Of a stretch of DNA of 64,000 bases, positions 36,821 through 43,284 are shown in pieces. The stretch is from positions 496,001-560,000 of the forward strand of contig ADAC02000001.1 of the NCBI GenBank assembly GCA_000163555.2, in the 5' to 3' direction. The position numbers were made by a program, and so were the translations under genes. The first letter of the stretch is position 1, and every line of letters begins with the position of its first letter. This DNA comes from an alpha proteobacterium HIMB114. Lineage in GTDB: Bacteria; Pseudomonadota; Alphaproteobacteria; Pelagibacterales; Pelagibacteraceae. The notes under the pieces were generated by a model, which was not told the DNA's origin, searched no databases, and saw only the letters and a program-made list of their open reading frames with translations.

Positions 36821-37497
36821 GATCCAAAGTTTCTTTTTATTTTTGAAAAATTATAAAGCAATCTATTTAAATCTCTTATATTAAAATCAGGCCATAATTT
36901 ATTACAAAAGTATATTTCAGAATATGATGATTCCCATAACAAGAAATCACTAAGTCTCTTGTGACCACCTGTTCTTATAACTAAATCTAAATCCCCGCTA
37001 ATATATGTACTTAAATTTTTTGTTAAATTTTTTATTGTAAGGTTATTTTTGTTTTTAAAAGTTTTTTTGATTGATAAAATAATATCTGACCTGGAGCTAT
37101 AATTAAATGCAATATTTAAAACTAAATTTGCTTTAGGTAATTTGGTTACTTTAGAGGTTTTTTTTAATAAAATTTTAATATTTTTAGGTAGGTTTCGATT
37201 TTCACCAATAAAATTTAAATGTATTTTATTTTTAATAAAAAAATCATTATTTTGCCTGAGATATTTATCTAATAAATCAAGAATATTATTAATTTCCTTT
37301 TGATCTCTTTTTAACAAATTATCTTTTGATAAAGCGTATAATGTTAAATTTTTAATTTTTTTTTTTAAAAAAAAATCAATAAAAGGCTTTATATTCTCTA
37401 CTCCTTTTTGATGGCCTTTTATTCTATTTTTGTAATTTTTGAGGCCCCATCTACCATTACCATCCATTATGATGGCAACATGACTCGGTAATTTCAT
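36817..37497 (-). CDS. uppS: Undecaprenyl diphosphate synthase
   Basis: cis-Prenyltransferase that builds the C55 lipid carrier for peptidoglycan and polysaccharide. 226 residues. Catalytic Asp in HVAIIMDGNGRWG, GHQKGVENI, LTLYALSKDNLLKR, NIAFNYSSRSDI, and the C-terminal substrate block DLVIRTGGHKRLSDFLLWES with YFCNKLWPDF. It overlaps frr by 4 nt and cdsA by 4 nt. Confidence 0.96.
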   Translation of the reverse strand: MKLPSHVAIIMDGNGRWGLKNYKNRIKGHQKGVENIKPFIDFFLKKKIKNLTLYALSKDNLLKRDQKEINNILDLLDKYLRQNNDFFIKNKIHLNFIGENRNLPKNIKILLKKTSKVTKLPKANLVLNIAFNYSSRSDIILSIKKTFKNKNNLTIKNLTKNLSTYISGDLDLVIRTGGHKRLSDFLLWESSYSEIYFCNKLWPDFNIRDLNRLLYNFSKIKRNFGS

Positions 37498-38054
37498 ACC
37501 TTGAGTATTTCTTCTTCTTTTTCTTTAATTTTAATTTCAACCTTTTTTATAAAATCATCAGTAATTTTTTGTAATTCATTAGATAATTTTTTACTTTCGT
37601 CTTCACTAATATTTTTATTTTTTTCTTCTTTTTTTAAAAAATCCATTCCTGTTCTTCTGACATTTCTAATTGAAATTTTAATTTTTTCTGATTGCTGATT
37701 TACTATTTTAGACAATTCTTTTCTTCTATCTTCATTTAATTTTGGAACTGGAATTCTAAGTAATTGACCATCAATTACTGGATTTAAGTTCAAATCGCTT
37801 TCTCTAATTGCCTTTTCACAAAACTTTACATTATTTGCATCCCATACTTGAATTGATATTGTTTGTGGATCAGTAACTGTTATTGTAGCAACTTGATTAA
37901 TTGGCATAGATTGTCCGTAAACCTCTACTTTGACCAAATCTAACATTGAAGAGTGTGCTCTTCCTGTTCTTACAGTTGAAAGATCTTTACCAAGCGAAAC
38001 AATTGAGTCTTCCATTTTTTTTTCAAAAGATTTTAATCTACTGTCCGTAGTCAT
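37494..38054 (-). CDS. frr: Ribosome recycling factor
   Basis: Splits post-termination ribosomes together with EF-G. 186 residues: SLGKDLSTVRTGRAHSSMLD, the beta domain with QVATITVTDPQTISIQVWD, LNLNPVIDGQLLRIPVPKLNEDRR, and the long C-terminal helix KISIRNVRRTGMDFLKK. It lies 4 nt after tsf, the place where pyrH normally intervenes. Confidence 0.97.
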   Translation of the reverse strand: MTTDSRLKSFEKKMEDSIVSLGKDLSTVRTGRAHSSMLDLVKVEVYGQSMPINQVATITVTDPQTISIQVWDANNVKFCEKAIRESDLNLNPVIDGQLLRIPVPKLNEDRRKELSKIVNQQSEKIKISIRNVRRTGMDFLKKEEKNKNISEDESKKLSNELQKITDDFIKKVEIKIKEKEEEILKV

Positions 38055-38058
38055 TTTT

Positions 38059-38961
38059 TTATTTTGTTAATGATTTTACTTCCTCACTAAAATCAGTTTT
38101 TTTAACCTCGATACCTTCGCCCACCTTGTATTTATAATAATTAATAATTTCAAAATTATCTCCATTATCTTTATTAAAGTTTTCTATAGCCTTCATTACT
38201 TTAATATCTTGATCAACAACCCAACTTTGGCCTAATAAAGTATTTTCAGATATAATTTTATTTAATTTTCCTGTCATAATTTTCTCAATTATCTCAGGTT
38301 TTTTCCCTTCTTTACTAAGTTGTTCTTCAATTATTTTTTTTTCACTTTCAATAAAATTTTTATCTAAACTCTTTTCATCTAATGCAATTGGTGACATTGC
38401 AGCTATATGCATACAAATGTTATTTGCAAAACTTTTTGAAACATCTTTATTTGACTTATATTTAATTACAGCAACGATTTTTCCAGTCAAATCACTTGAT
38501 TTATTATGAATGTAATAACTTACCTTGTATCCATCTTTTTTAATATTTTCAAATCGTCTTAATTTTATATTTTCACCAATTTTAGAAATTAGATTAACAA
38601 TAGAATCTTTAACAGTCGTATCATTTAATTTTTGACTTTGTAGTTCATCTATACTTTTTGCATTTACACTTGCTTTAGAAATCTTTGAGCAAAATTCTAT
38701 AAATTCATTATTTTTAGCAACAAAGTCTGTTTCGGTGTTTATTTCAGTTAAGGTAAAATTATTTTCACTTTCACCAGTAATGATTAATCCCTCGGCTGCA
38801 TCTCTTGAGCTTTTTTTAGATGCTTTTAAGACACCTTTTTTTCTTAGATATTCTACCGATTTATCTATATCGTTATTATTTTCTTTAAGAGCATTTTTGC
38901 AATCTTGCATACCAGCTCCAGTAACTTCCCTTAACTCTTTTACTTTTTCAAGCACTGACAT
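38059..38961 (-). CDS. tsf: Elongation factor Ts
   Basis: Guanine-nucleotide exchange factor for EF-Tu. 300 residues. N-terminal UBA-like domain with VKELREVTGAGMQDCKNALKENNNDI, the core contact FTLTEINTETDFVAKNNEF, and the C-terminal LLGQSWVVDQDIKV block. It starts 14 nt inside the rpsB end; the two are a standard coupled pair controlled by the S2 leader. Confidence 0.97.
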   Translation of the reverse strand: MSVLEKVKELREVTGAGMQDCKNALKENNNDIDKSVEYLRKKGVLKASKKSSRDAAEGLIITGESENNFTLTEINTETDFVAKNNEFIEFCSKISKASVNAKSIDELQSQKLNDTTVKDSIVNLISKIGENIKLRRFENIKKDGYKVSYYIHNKSSDLTGKIVAVIKYKSNKDVSKSFANNICMHIAAMSPIALDEKSLDKNFIESEKKIIEEQLSKEGKKPEIIEKIMTGKLNKIISENTLLGQSWVVDQDIKVMKAIENFNKDNGDNFEIINYYKYKVGEGIEVKKTDFSEEVKSLTK

Positions 38962-39736
38962 TTTTATCTTCCTTGTTTATCTCTTTTTTATTATTCGATT
39001 TTTGATCTTTTAAATTATCATTTATTTTTTCTTTTTTTTCAGAAACTTTAATATTTTTCTTTGCATCTAAAATAGTTTTTTTAATTAAATCACAATAAAG
39101 ATTGATTGACCTACGTGCATCGTCATTCCCTGGAATTGGAAAATCAATATTATCTGGATCAGAATTGCTGTCTAGTACTCCAATAATGGGAATGTTAAGT
39201 TTTTTTGCCTCCAATACAGCTAATGACTCAATATTTGTATCTATTACGAAAATTATATCTGGAATTTTTTTCATCTCAGAAATTCCACCTAAGGATCTTT
39301 CTAGTTTTTCTTTTTCAAGATTCATTTTGATTAACTCTTTTTTTGTAAATCCAGAGTCTTCCTTTAATAAATTTTTCTTGAGCTCTTTTAATCTTTTTAT
39401 TGAATTGGTAATTGTATTCCAATTAGTTAGCATTCCTCCTAACCATCTAAAATTTACATAATAATTATCTGTTTCTTTGGCAACTTCAGCAATAAGTTCG
39501 GAAGCTTGTTTTTTGGTAGAAACAAATAATACTTTGCCACCACTTGATACAGATTTATGTAGTTCTAAAAGAGCGGTTTTTAAAAGCTCTAATGTTTTTG
39601 ACAAATCGATGATGTGAATAGAGTTTTTTTCTCCAAAAATATAAGGTTTCATTTTCGGATTCCACCTAAAGGTCTTGTGACCTAAGTGTACACCTGCCTC
39701 TAACAGGTCTTTTACTGTTACTTCTGGTAAATTCAT
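38948..39736 (-). CDS. rpsB: Ribosomal protein S2
   Basis: Small-subunit protein, 262 residues from the ATG at 39736, preceded by AAGGA four bases upstream. An open-frame extension to 39793 crosses the structured leader and is not protein. Motifs: LLEAGVHLGHKTFRWNPKMKPYIFGEKN, YVNFRWLGGMLTNWNTI, PDIIFVIDTN, and IPGNDDARRSINLYCDLI. The last 35 or so residues form a Lys/Glu/Asn-rich tail (KEINKEDKNVSA at the end) beyond the normal S2 fold. Confidence 0.97.
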   Translation of the reverse strand: MNLPEVTVKDLLEAGVHLGHKTFRWNPKMKPYIFGEKNSIHIIDLSKTLELLKTALLELHKSVSSGGKVLFVSTKKQASELIAEVAKETDNYYVNFRWLGGMLTNWNTITNSIKRLKELKKNLLKEDSGFTKKELIKMNLEKEKLERSLGGISEMKKIPDIIFVIDTNIESLAVLEAKKLNIPIIGVLDSNSDPDNIDFPIPGNDDARRSINLYCDLIKKTILDAKKNIKVSEKKEKINDNLKDQKSNNKKEINKEDKNVSA

Positions 39737-39738
39737 TT

Positions 39739-39828
39739 TATCCTTTCCGGTTAATCCTCCAGAGAAGCTACTGCATATGCAGACCGGGGGCATAAAGCCA
39801 CTTTCTCTGTGCGTTTTTTATGTGGCTT
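39739..39828 (-). ncRNA. rpsB (S2) 5' leader, structured autoregulatory element candidate
   Basis: A GC-richer block in the longest gene-free gap of the window. Read on the minus strand: hairpin arms AAGCCAC (39828-39822) and GTGGCTT (39801-39795); CCGGT (39787-39783) complementary to ACCGG (39751-39747); palindrome CTGCATATGCAG (39782-39771); and CAGAGAA (39809-39803), inside the first hairpin loop, complementary to TTCTCTG (39766-39760), which abuts GGAGG (39760-39756). The start-proximal Shine-Dalgarno, AAGGA, is at 39745-39741. S2 leaders of this sort have been described in Pelagibacter and are thought to bind S2. The exact structure is my inference. Confidence 0.75.
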
Positions 39829-39853
39829 ATATAACTGAATGCTAAAATTACAA
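39826..39853 (-). promoter_or_regulatory. Candidate rpsB promoter
   Basis: TTGTAA (39853-39848) and TATAAG (39831-39826) on the minus strand with 16 nt spacing, 12 nt beyond the dnaE stop. The -10 overlaps the first arm of the leader hairpin, so initiation here would remove part of that arm. Either an upstream promoter in or before dnaE is used, or the hairpin is not part of the mature leader. Confidence 0.35.
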
Positions 39854-39864
39854 CTGAAAATTTA

Positions 39865-42800
39865 TTAAAAAATTGGCTTTATTTGGTAATTTTCAAGGAA
39901 CTCAATATCAGAATGCCTAACATTAAATTTATGATCAAGTTTAAAAGAATACTTTTTAGAATTTTTATCCTTATAAATAATATTTACATTTGAAGACCCT
40001 TTTTCATTCAATCTACTTTTAATAACATCTAAAGATTTGATATTATCAATTTCAAAACTCACCTTATCAATTATTTGATTTTTTAAATCATCTATTAAAA
40101 ATATATTTTCTAAATTAATTCTTTCAATATTTTCTTTAGTGATTTCTTTCTTTACCTTTACCAAAAAAGAATTACCAACAACAAGATCAGATCTATTTTC
40201 TACTAATTTTTCTGAAAATATAAATAGTTCATACATTGAGCCTAGATCAACTAACTTAATGATTGCATAAGGATTTCCCTTTGCGGTTTTTTTTTCTTGA
40301 ATTGAAATTAATGTTCCGGCAATCATTGCATCTTTAAGAGCATTATTATTTTTTAATTCTTGATGTGAAGATACGTTATATTTTTTTAGGACTTGAAGAT
40401 TTGATTTTAACGGATGTTCTCCAACAAAAAACCCAATTGACTCAAACTCTTTTTTTATTTTTTCATTTTTATCCCAATCTAATATGTTAAATTCTTGTAT
40501 ATTTGTTTGATCATTCTCCATTTCATTTGAAAATAATTGATCTTGTTCGTTATCGTTAACTTTATCAGAAGATTTTGATTGTTTTATATATTCTGGAACA
40601 TTCTCAAAAAGTTTTTTTCTATTATTGTCTAAGATATCTAACGAACCAGACTTGATTAAACCCTCTAATTGTAACTTATTTAAATTTTTACTTTCTACTC
40701 TGCTTAAAAATTCAGAAATTGAATTGAATTTTCCATTTTTCTCTCTTTCATATACAATTTTTGAAATAGTATCATAACCTACAGCTTTTACTGCCGATAA
40801 TGCGTAATAAATAGTTTTATCTCGAGGTAAAAATTCTGCATATGAAAAATTAATATTTGGTGGTCTAATATCAATTTTTAATCTTTTTAATTCTTCGTAA
40901 AATAAATTTAATTTATCAGTATTTGATAGTTCAGTATTCATAGATGCGCAAAAGAAATATATTGGATAATGAGTTTTTAGGTACGCTGTTTGAAAAGCAA
41001 TTAACGCATATGCAGCAGCATGACTTTTGTTAAAACCATATTGTGCAAACTTTTCTACTAATTGAAAAATATAAATAACTTGATCTCTTGAAATACCATT
41101 TTTAACAGCTCCATCTATAAAATCTTTTTTTTGCCGCTCCATTTCTACTGACTTTTTCTTACCCATAGCTTTTCTTAAAATATCCGCTTTGCTTGCGCTG
41201 AAACTTGATAAAGCTTGAGCAATTTGCATCACTTGTTCTTGATAAATTATTACTCCATATGTTTCCTTTAAAATATTTTCTAACTTTGGATGAATGTAGT
41301 CAACTTCCTCTTTTTCATGTTTTCTAGAAATATAAGTTGGAATATTTTGCATAGGACCAGGTCTATACAATGCTACTAAGGCTATGATATCTTCAAATTT
41401 ATTTGGTTTTAATTGCTTTAAAACTTCTCTCATCCCAGAGCTTTCAAGTTGAAATATACCCATAGTTTCTCCAGAACTAAGTAGCTCAAAAGTTTTTTGA
41501 TCTGATAAATTGATTTTACTTATATCAAAATCAGCTTTGTCTTTTTGAATAAATTCAATAGTTTTTTTTATTACTGTTAAAGTTTTTAAACCAAGAAAAT
41601 CAAATTTAACCAAACCAGCTTCCTCTGATGATTTCATATCAAATTGAGTAACTGGAATTGGTAAGGTTGAAGATAAATCTTTATAAAGAGGAACTATTTC
41701 ATCTAAATTTCTATCACCAATAACAACTCCCGCTGCATGAGTTGCTACGTTTCTATATAACCCTTCAAGTTTCAAAGCATAATTAATTAGTTTTTTTATT
41801 ATTGGATCGTTTTTTTCAGCTTCTTGTAATCTTGGTTCTATTGCAATTGACTCAGCTAAAGACAATGGTCTAGACGGATCAAATGGTATCATTTTACAAA
41901 GCTGATCTACCCTTCCATAAGGTAGACCTAAAACTCTACCAATATCACGTAATGCCATTCTTGCTTGAAGCTTTCCAAAAGTAATAATTTGGGCAACTTT
42001 ATTTGGATATTTGTCTTTAACATAATTAATAACTTCATCACGACCTTCTTGACAAAAATCTATATCAAAGTCTGGCATTGATATTCTGTCGGGGTTTAAG
42101 AAACGCTCAAAGATCAAACCAAATCTGATAGGATCTAAATCAGTAATAGACAGGCACCAGGCAACAAGCGATCCAGCTCCCGATCCTCTTCCTGGCCCTA
42201 CAGGAATATTATTTGATTTAGCCCAATTTATGTAATCAGATACAATTAAAAAGTACCCGGAAAATTTCATTTTTGAAATTACGTTAACTTCATAATTTAA
42301 TCTGTCAAAATAATTTTTTTTAATTTCGTCTTTATCAGTAGTTGCACCTAGCCTTGGATAAACGTACTTTTCTAATCTTTCTTCTAAACCTTTCTCTGCT
42401 TTATCTTTTAATATTTGATTAGTATCTTTTCCATTTTCAGAAAAAGATGGAAGTAATGGATTACTTTTTTTTGGAAAATAATTAAATTTATATTTAAAGT
42501 TTTTGTTATTTTCGAGAGCGTCAGGCAAATCAGCAAAAAGGTTTTCAAATTCACTTGTTTTTTTAAAATAATGCTGATTGGAATATTTTAACCTGTTTTT
42601 TTCATTAACATAATTTTTTTCACCAACGCAAATAAAAGCGTCATGAGCATTATATGAATCTTGTTCCAGATAAAATACTTCATTGGTTGCAATTAATGGT
42701 ATACTTGTATCAGATGATAATTTAATTAACTTTTTTTCAAGTTGTTTTTCATGAGACTCATTATGTCTTTGAATTTCTATATAAATATTATCATTAAAAA

Positions 42801-43284
42801 TATCTTTAAGTTTTTTTACCTCGTTGAAACAGTATTCATCTTTATTTTTTACTAATAAATCTGAAAAAAAACTAAAACTTCCACCGATTAGTATAATTAT
42901 TCCCTCATGATATTTTTTTAATATATTTAAATTGATATTTGGCTTGTCGTCATGTTCTTGTAGATCGAGATAAGATTTGGAAGATAGTTTTAGTAAATTT
43001 TTATAGCCGATTTGATTTTTTGCATACAGGGATGCTGTTCCGTAGGTTATTTTTCCATCTACATTTTCTTTTATATAAATTTTTGTTCCTATTAGAGGTT
43101 GAATGCCTTCCTTCTTAAGTTGAGAAGAAAATTCTAAAGCTCCAGATAAGTTTTCAGAGTCACAAAGTCCTACTGCTGTAACACTATGCTCTTTGCAGTA
43201 ATTAACCAATTTATCAATTTTTATTGCACCTTCACAAATTGAAAATTGGGAATGTATTTTTAAATTAATTGCTTCTGCAGACAT
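39865..43284 (-). CDS. dnaE: DNA polymerase III alpha subunit
   Basis: Replicative polymerase, 1139 residues. PHP domain (1 to about 280; NLKIHSQFSICEGA), palm with PVGPGRGSGAGSLVAWCLSI and the catalytic aspartates in SMPDFDIDFCQEGRDEV, RNVATHAAGVVIGDR, DFLGLKTLTVI, VALYRPGPMQNIPTYISRKH, GVIIYQEQVMQIAQ and FNKSHAAAYALIAFQTAYLK; then a helix-hairpin-helix region and an OB domain (DAMIAGTLISIQEKKTAKGN). It shares one base with lolD. The order lolC-lolD-dnaE is conserved in alphaproteobacteria. Confidence 0.97.
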   Translation of the reverse strand: MSAEAINLKIHSQFSICEGAIKIDKLVNYCKEHSVTAVGLCDSENLSGALEFSSQLKKEGIQPLIGTKIYIKENVDGKITYGTASLYAKNQIGYKNLLKLSSKSYLDLQEHDDKPNINLNILKKYHEGIIILIGGSFSFFSDLLVKNKDEYCFNEVKKLKDIFNDNIYIEIQRHNESHEKQLEKKLIKLSSDTSIPLIATNEVFYLEQDSYNAHDAFICVGEKNYVNEKNRLKYSNQHYFKKTSEFENLFADLPDALENNKNFKYKFNYFPKKSNPLLPSFSENGKDTNQILKDKAEKGLEERLEKYVYPRLGATTDKDEIKKNYFDRLNYEVNVISKMKFSGYFLIVSDYINWAKSNNIPVGPGRGSGAGSLVAWCLSITDLDPIRFGLIFERFLNPDRISMPDFDIDFCQEGRDEVINYVKDKYPNKVAQIITFGKLQARMALRDIGRVLGLPYGRVDQLCKMIPFDPSRPLSLAESIAIEPRLQEAEKNDPIIKKLINYALKLEGLYRNVATHAAGVVIGDRNLDEIVPLYKDLSSTLPIPVTQFDMKSSEEAGLVKFDFLGLKTLTVIKKTIEFIQKDKADFDISKINLSDQKTFELLSSGETMGIFQLESSGMREVLKQLKPNKFEDIIALVALYRPGPMQNIPTYISRKHEKEEVDYIHPKLENILKETYGVIIYQEQVMQIAQALSSFSASKADILRKAMGKKKSVEMERQKKDFIDGAVKNGISRDQVIYIFQLVEKFAQYGFNKSHAAAYALIAFQTAYLKTHYPIYFFCASMNTELSNTDKLNLFYEELKRLKIDIRPPNINFSYAEFLPRDKTIYYALSAVKAVGYDTISKIVYEREKNGKFNSISEFLSRVESKNLNKLQLEGLIKSGSLDILDNNRKKLFENVPEYIKQSKSSDKVNDNEQDQLFSNEMENDQTNIQEFNILDWDKNEKIKKEFESIGFFVGEHPLKSNLQVLKKYNVSSHQELKNNNALKDAMIAGTLISIQEKKTAKGNPYAIIKLVDLGSMYELFIFSEKLVENRSDLVVGNSFLVKVKKEITKENIERINLENIFLIDDLKNQIIDKVSFEIDNIKSLDVIKSRLNEKGSSNVNIIYKDKNSKKYSFKLDHKFNVRHSDIEFLENYQIKPIF

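Follow-up and report, generated by a model that had tools for sequence, protein, structure and literature searches.

The rpsB-tsf locus

In the genome of alpha proteobacterium HIMB114, several complementary stretches lie between dnaE and rpsB, the gene for ribosomal protein S2. This raises the question whether they form a regulatory mRNA leader and, if so, to which family the leader belongs and how it could act on rpsB-tsf. We analysed this region within a DNA stretch of 64,000 nucleotides (the window). The stretches named in a preliminary description of the locus are all present on the minus strand where it had placed them. The genes and elements are as follows:

38059..38961, minus strand: tsf (elongation factor Ts), second gene of the operon; follows rpsB also in the related loci examined
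38948..39736, minus strand: rpsB (30S ribosomal protein S2); start ATG 39736-39734, first residues MNLPEVTVKDLL; 581 tblastn relatives align from residue 1
39741..39746, minus strand: AAAGGA, likely Shine-Dalgarno sequence, judged from the sequence
39747..39813, minus strand: rpsB (S2) leader motif, from the P1 5' end to the pseudoknot 3' end; matched by RF01815 and model R1
39747..39751, minus strand: pseudoknot 3' strand ACCGG, 10 nt before the start codon
39756-39760, minus strand: GGAGG, P1 end and one further base; distance to the ATG 19 nt
39757..39766, minus strand: P1 3' strand TTCTCTGGAG, with TTCTCTG at 39766-39760; holds most of GGAGG
39771..39782, minus strand: P3, CTGC/GCAG (39782-39779 with 39774-39771), read from the sequence
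39783..39787, minus strand: pseudoknot 5' strand CCGGT in the P2-P3 junction; covaries phylum-wide
39789..39799, minus strand: P2, 3-bp hairpin GGC/GCC (39799-39797 with 39791-39789)
39803..39813, minus strand: P1 5' strand CGCACAGAGAA, including the previously noted CAGAGAA (39809-39803); covaries
39795..39828, minus strand: hairpin AAGCCAC/GTGGCTT (arms 39828-39822 and 39801-39795); rejected as a functional element
39826..39853, minus strand: probable promoter, -35 TTGTAA (39853-39848), 16 nt, -10 TATAAG (39831-39826); predicted start near 39819
39865-43284: dnaE; the leader region sits between dnaE and rpsB

The closest named rpsB is that of the alphaproteobacterial single cell SCGC AAA028-C07, with Pelagibacteraceae next. 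Within the leader, at 39793, an in-frame ATG lengthens the rpsB reading frame by 19 codons, and a gene caller might pick this ATG and hide the leader. We regard the extension as non-coding, because the leaders of the genus vary by single bases (80-82 nt) and their helices covary. No terminator or attenuator was found at the rpsB leader. Downstream, frr directly follows tsf (window 37494-38961). The gene pyrH usually lies between tsf and frr; it is missing at this place, as it is from the SAR11 loci examined. A search of the whole genome with TIGR02075 gave only matches below the cut-off (34.8 and 31 bits), possibly other amino-acid kinases, and the UMP kinase is unaccounted for.

The leader is a member of the rpsB motif family

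The region had been called an S2 leader, of a kind known from Pelagibacter, and this holds. The rpsB motif was described in 2009 from Candidatus Pelagibacter ubique, in the gap between dnaE and rpsB (Meyer et al. 2009, PMC2704228), and the window genome falls in the order of that bacterium. In the published motif, P1 joins P2 and P3, both short, in a three-stem junction, and the stretch between P2 and P3 forms a pseudoknot of five pairs with a 3' extension of P1 (PMC2704228). In the window, likewise, a long P1 closes a junction with a 3-bp P2 and a short P3, five pairs connect J2-3 with the extension 3' of P1, and the motif lies directly upstream of rpsB-tsf. Furthermore, the window leader shares GG-N-GG followed by UAACCGG, and its place between dnaE and rpsB is that found in Pelagibacter. 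It differs from the typical motif in the letters of P1 (CAGAGAA/TTCTCTG instead of CACAGTT/AACTGTG), in having GGAGG for GGUGG, in its four-pair P3 and in its retained Shine-Dalgarno sequence.

The assignment is borne out by the place before rpsB, by an RF01815 match at exactly this place and by the conservation of P1 and the pseudoknot. RF01815 matches positions 39733-39813 over its full length (1-132) with 38.1 bits (E 4.3e-5). The search with Rfam models that had been suggested as a check thus hits the site, but the score stays just under the gathering score of 40, and a default Rfam scan of the leader region returned nothing above the cut-off. With R1, a model that we made from 29 SAR11 leaders found by Rfam, the window leader scores 69.9 bits (E 3.9e-13). 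The leader belongs to an RNA family published from this very order, and as such it is already known. This also applies to the loop-to-Shine-Dalgarno pairing that the preliminary description had read directly from the sequence: CAGAGAA/TTCTCTG is stem P1 of the published motif, and CCGGT/ACCGG is its published pseudoknot.

We compared the leader with t44 RNA (RF00127), which occupies the same position before rpsB-tsf in Escherichia coli. The P1 of t44 ends in GUGGAGG, and its pseudoknot strands (GGGGU/ACCCC) lie at equivalent places, whereas its internal stems are longer and the letters of its pseudoknot differ. RF00127 finds no match in the window genome, while E. coli, used as positive control, is matched.

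Covariation of P1, P2, P3 and the pseudoknot

Among 97 distinct SAR11 leaders, which were aligned to the P1/P2/P3 structure in a way that favours these helices and leaves the pseudoknot outside the model, changes on both sides occur at 8 of 10 pairs of P1 (95.4% of cells paired), at all four alignment pairs of P2 (90.3%) and in P3, for which two pairs were counted (91.8%). The whole-structure covariation score is 0.362, compared to 0.128 for shuffled alignments, and sliding the partners gives no more than 0.069. One relative from the genus of the window (L001) has CAAAGAA/TTCTTTG in place of CAGAGAA/TTCTCTG, a compensatory change in the very helix that had been pointed out.

The pseudoknot is nearly invariant in SAR11, with 99.8% of cells paired: 96 of 98 rows have CCGGT/ACCGG, one has CCTGT/ACAGG (L088, a single-cell genome), which is the one compensatory change, and one has CCGGT/ACCGA. 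A search of 397 genomes for further variants at the middle position gave eight pattern matches, none of which was confirmed as a leader. Across Proteobacteria the pseudoknot covaries (CCGGU/ACCGG, CCUGU/ACAGG, GGGGU/ACCCC, CGGGU/ACCCG and UGGGU/ACCCA). Beyond SAR11 we used a script that seeks complements to find the strands, so that the counts select for exact pairing, and the missed ones were inspected separately. Counted in this way, CCGGT/ACCGG is kept in 27 of 30 alphaproteobacterial loci, plus one further locus that the script mis-called. In gammaproteobacteria we found GGGGT/ACCCC in 14 and in E. coli, CGGGT/ACCCG in three and TGGGT/ACCCA in two; the remaining ones mostly have TGGGT/ACCCG, with a terminal U-G pair.

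Compensatory changes had been proposed as a check for CAGAGAA/TTCTCTG and CCGGT/ACCGG, and both pairings have them. Judged by this comparison with relatives, which separates real from accidental pairing, P1 and the pseudoknot are real. The crossing pairings had been read as a pseudoknot or as two mutually exclusive folds. The first reading is correct for two of the three helices, P1 and CCGGT/ACCGG, which adjoin the ribosome binding site. The second reading fails: P1 and the pseudoknot cross yet are compatible within one fold, and the only helix that would exclude P1, the AAGCCAC hairpin, is unconserved.

Distribution of the leader

Of 398 genomes in the order, 327 have a motif match with R1. 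RF01815 gives weak matches in 41 of 100 relatives and passes its cut-off in none of them. Some genomes lack the motif; no rpsB was detectable in the 21 of these that were checked (a part of all negatives), using a query that detects rpsB in six of eight members of the genus. Thus, no rpsB without the leader was found among the genomes checked. Across the class, RF01815 has matches in 121 of 192 genomes, 52 of them over the cut-off, and gammaproteobacteria, including E. coli, carry the sister family t44 (RF00127).

Two individual loci are unusual. One genome bin (G007) has two rpsB genes (L144 and L147) with leaders from two different SAR11 genera, likely due to its reported contamination of 6%. 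Another leader (L176, G151:C48) has an insertion of about 20 nt in the P2 loop (TATCACTACATTAGAAGTTATA).

Possible regulation by S2

We propose, with a probability of about 0.85, that this RNA is the S2 autoregulatory leader of a SAR11 bacterium, in which S2 acts on the fold of P1, P2, P3 and pseudoknot and lowers translation of rpsB-tsf. A short mRNA leader would begin near 39819, P1 (39813-39803 with 39766-39757) would close the junction that holds the small stems P2 and P3, and CCGGT, located between these two stems, would pair with ACCGG directly ahead of the ribosome binding site. Free S2, which is assisted by S1 in E. coli, would then bind this fold, presumably also in SAR11, and rpsB-tsf would be translated less. 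The simplest mechanism would be that the S2-stabilised pseudoknot itself is the blocking element and directly prevents binding of the 30S subunit. Against this proposal stand the RF01815 score below 40 and the near invariance of the SAR11 pseudoknot, with its single compensatory change in one single-cell genome. A literature search for S2-binding or expression data from SAR11 found none.

Covariation establishes the leader fold, and the fold has a fixed place before rpsB. From the end of ACCGG to the start codon there are 3-12 nt in SAR11 (mode 8; 10 nt in the window) and 10-17 nt in other alphaproteobacteria, whereas the pseudoknot of t44 in E. coli, read from the sequence, ends 24 nt before the start codon. 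The short distance in SAR11 makes occlusion of the ribosome site by the pseudoknot plausible.

It is less likely, though well worth considering, that the leader RNA is real and S2 acts by another route, for instance through a block of S1-dependent unwinding or standby binding, or through mRNA decay after uncoupling, and not by a pseudoknot over the ribosome site. S2 and S1 jointly repress translation of rpsB-tsf via the E. coli leader, deletion of a conserved bulge abolishes repression, and the mRNA level drops after uncoupling (PMC10931766). We infer that this bulge is the 5' strand of the pseudoknot, because the t44 consensus leaves GGGU unpaired there. The same review places the ribosome binding site outside the S2 operator and calls the mechanistic details unclear (PMC10931766); thus, S2 may act otherwise than by direct occlusion. 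The 24 nt between pseudoknot and start codon in E. coli agree with such a route. In SAR11, however, the pseudoknot strand ends within the usual 30S footprint as far as spacing can tell, which favours direct occlusion there.

The pairings had also been described as bracketing Shine-Dalgarno-like sequences. AAAGGA, which follows ACCGG, is likely the Shine-Dalgarno sequence. GGAGG is probably not, since it is part of P1, lies 19 nt from the start codon and is replaced by GGUGG in most SAR11; we therefore rejected it as the ribosome site and regard it as a probable feature of the motif. GGAGG is also present in gammaproteobacterial leaders, including that of E. coli. A Shine-Dalgarno-like core is found throughout the genus, but in only 9 of 98 SAR11 leaders. 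Tentatively, and at somewhat less than even odds, the S2 leader of SAR11 may have been shortened, so that the pseudoknot strand came to lie in or next to the Shine-Dalgarno position and the remote operator of E. coli was turned into a direct, minimal ribosome-blocking pseudoknot. This reading is based on the 3-12 nt between ACCGG and the start codon and on the lack of a Shine-Dalgarno core in 89 of 98 SAR11 leaders.

The promoter and the first hairpin

The preliminary description had noted a promoter candidate at 39826-39853 that overlaps the first arm of the hairpin AAGCCAC/GTGGCTT, and it had pointed out the conflict between the two. The promoter is real as a pattern (TTGTAA, 16 nt, TATAAG), although a strict sigma-70 scan did not list it. 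The 5' stretch TTATATAAGCC, which contains the -10 TATAAG, is identical throughout the genus. Of the TATA tetramers upstream of 96 SAR11 leaders, 63 fall between -20 and -17 relative to the motif start, and about 30 lie elsewhere in the 60 nt. A literature search found no paper on transcription starts in SAR11. From the position of the -10-like TATA we predict a transcript start near 39819. This would leave the AAGCCAC arm (39828-39822) upstream of the start and probably mostly untranscribed; transcripts that read through from dnaE could still form the hairpin. The minimum-energy fold takes the AAGCCAC hairpin if the 5' arm is included, and P1/P2/P3 without the arm. Together with the predicted start, this resolves the conflict between promoter and hairpin against the hairpin.

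That minimum-energy fold is what speaks for a two-state switch, in which AAGCCAC/GTGGCTT forms first and excludes P1, and the leader toggles between exposing and hiding the ribosome site. We consider such a switch very improbable. In six genus members with detected rpsB, compared with an anchored script, the hairpin has 7, 7, 6, 4, 4 and 4 of 7 pairs with no compensatory change, and other SAR11 genera have unrelated sequence at this position. The 5' arm of the hairpin shares bases with the -10 element and lies ahead of the predicted start, and stems of this kind are common by chance: at least one perfect stem of at least 7 bp occurs in 437 of 1000 dinucleotide shuffles of the 148-nt region. 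We thus rejected the hairpin as a switch and as a functional element; it is not a conserved alternative helix that would exclude P1.

Complementarity by itself does not exceed what the shuffles lead one to expect. Folding energies of the single sequence are not unusual compared to shuffled sequences (z-scores -0.96, 0.05, 0.36 and -0.05), so that single-sequence folding is uninformative as evidence for the leader; coincidental complementarity in a short intergenic region, with which these energies would agree, is nevertheless refuted for P1 and the pseudoknot, as P1, P2 and the pseudoknot covary, and it has next to no probability as an account of the locus, although it stands for the first hairpin.

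Implications

Our additions to the published motif are small: a wide sampling of SAR11, the covariation of the pseudoknot, the failure of the RF01815 cut-off in SAR11, the promoter geometry and the removal of an extra hairpin. With its gathering score of 40, RF01815 misses the motif in every one of the 100 relatives searched, even though the motif was discovered in this order. With many more genomes, a published ribosomal-protein leader is confirmed as near-universal in SAR11, which are among the most abundant marine bacteria. Furthermore, because pseudoknot and start codon are so close in SAR11, the mechanism of repression can be tested more easily in these bacteria than in E. coli.
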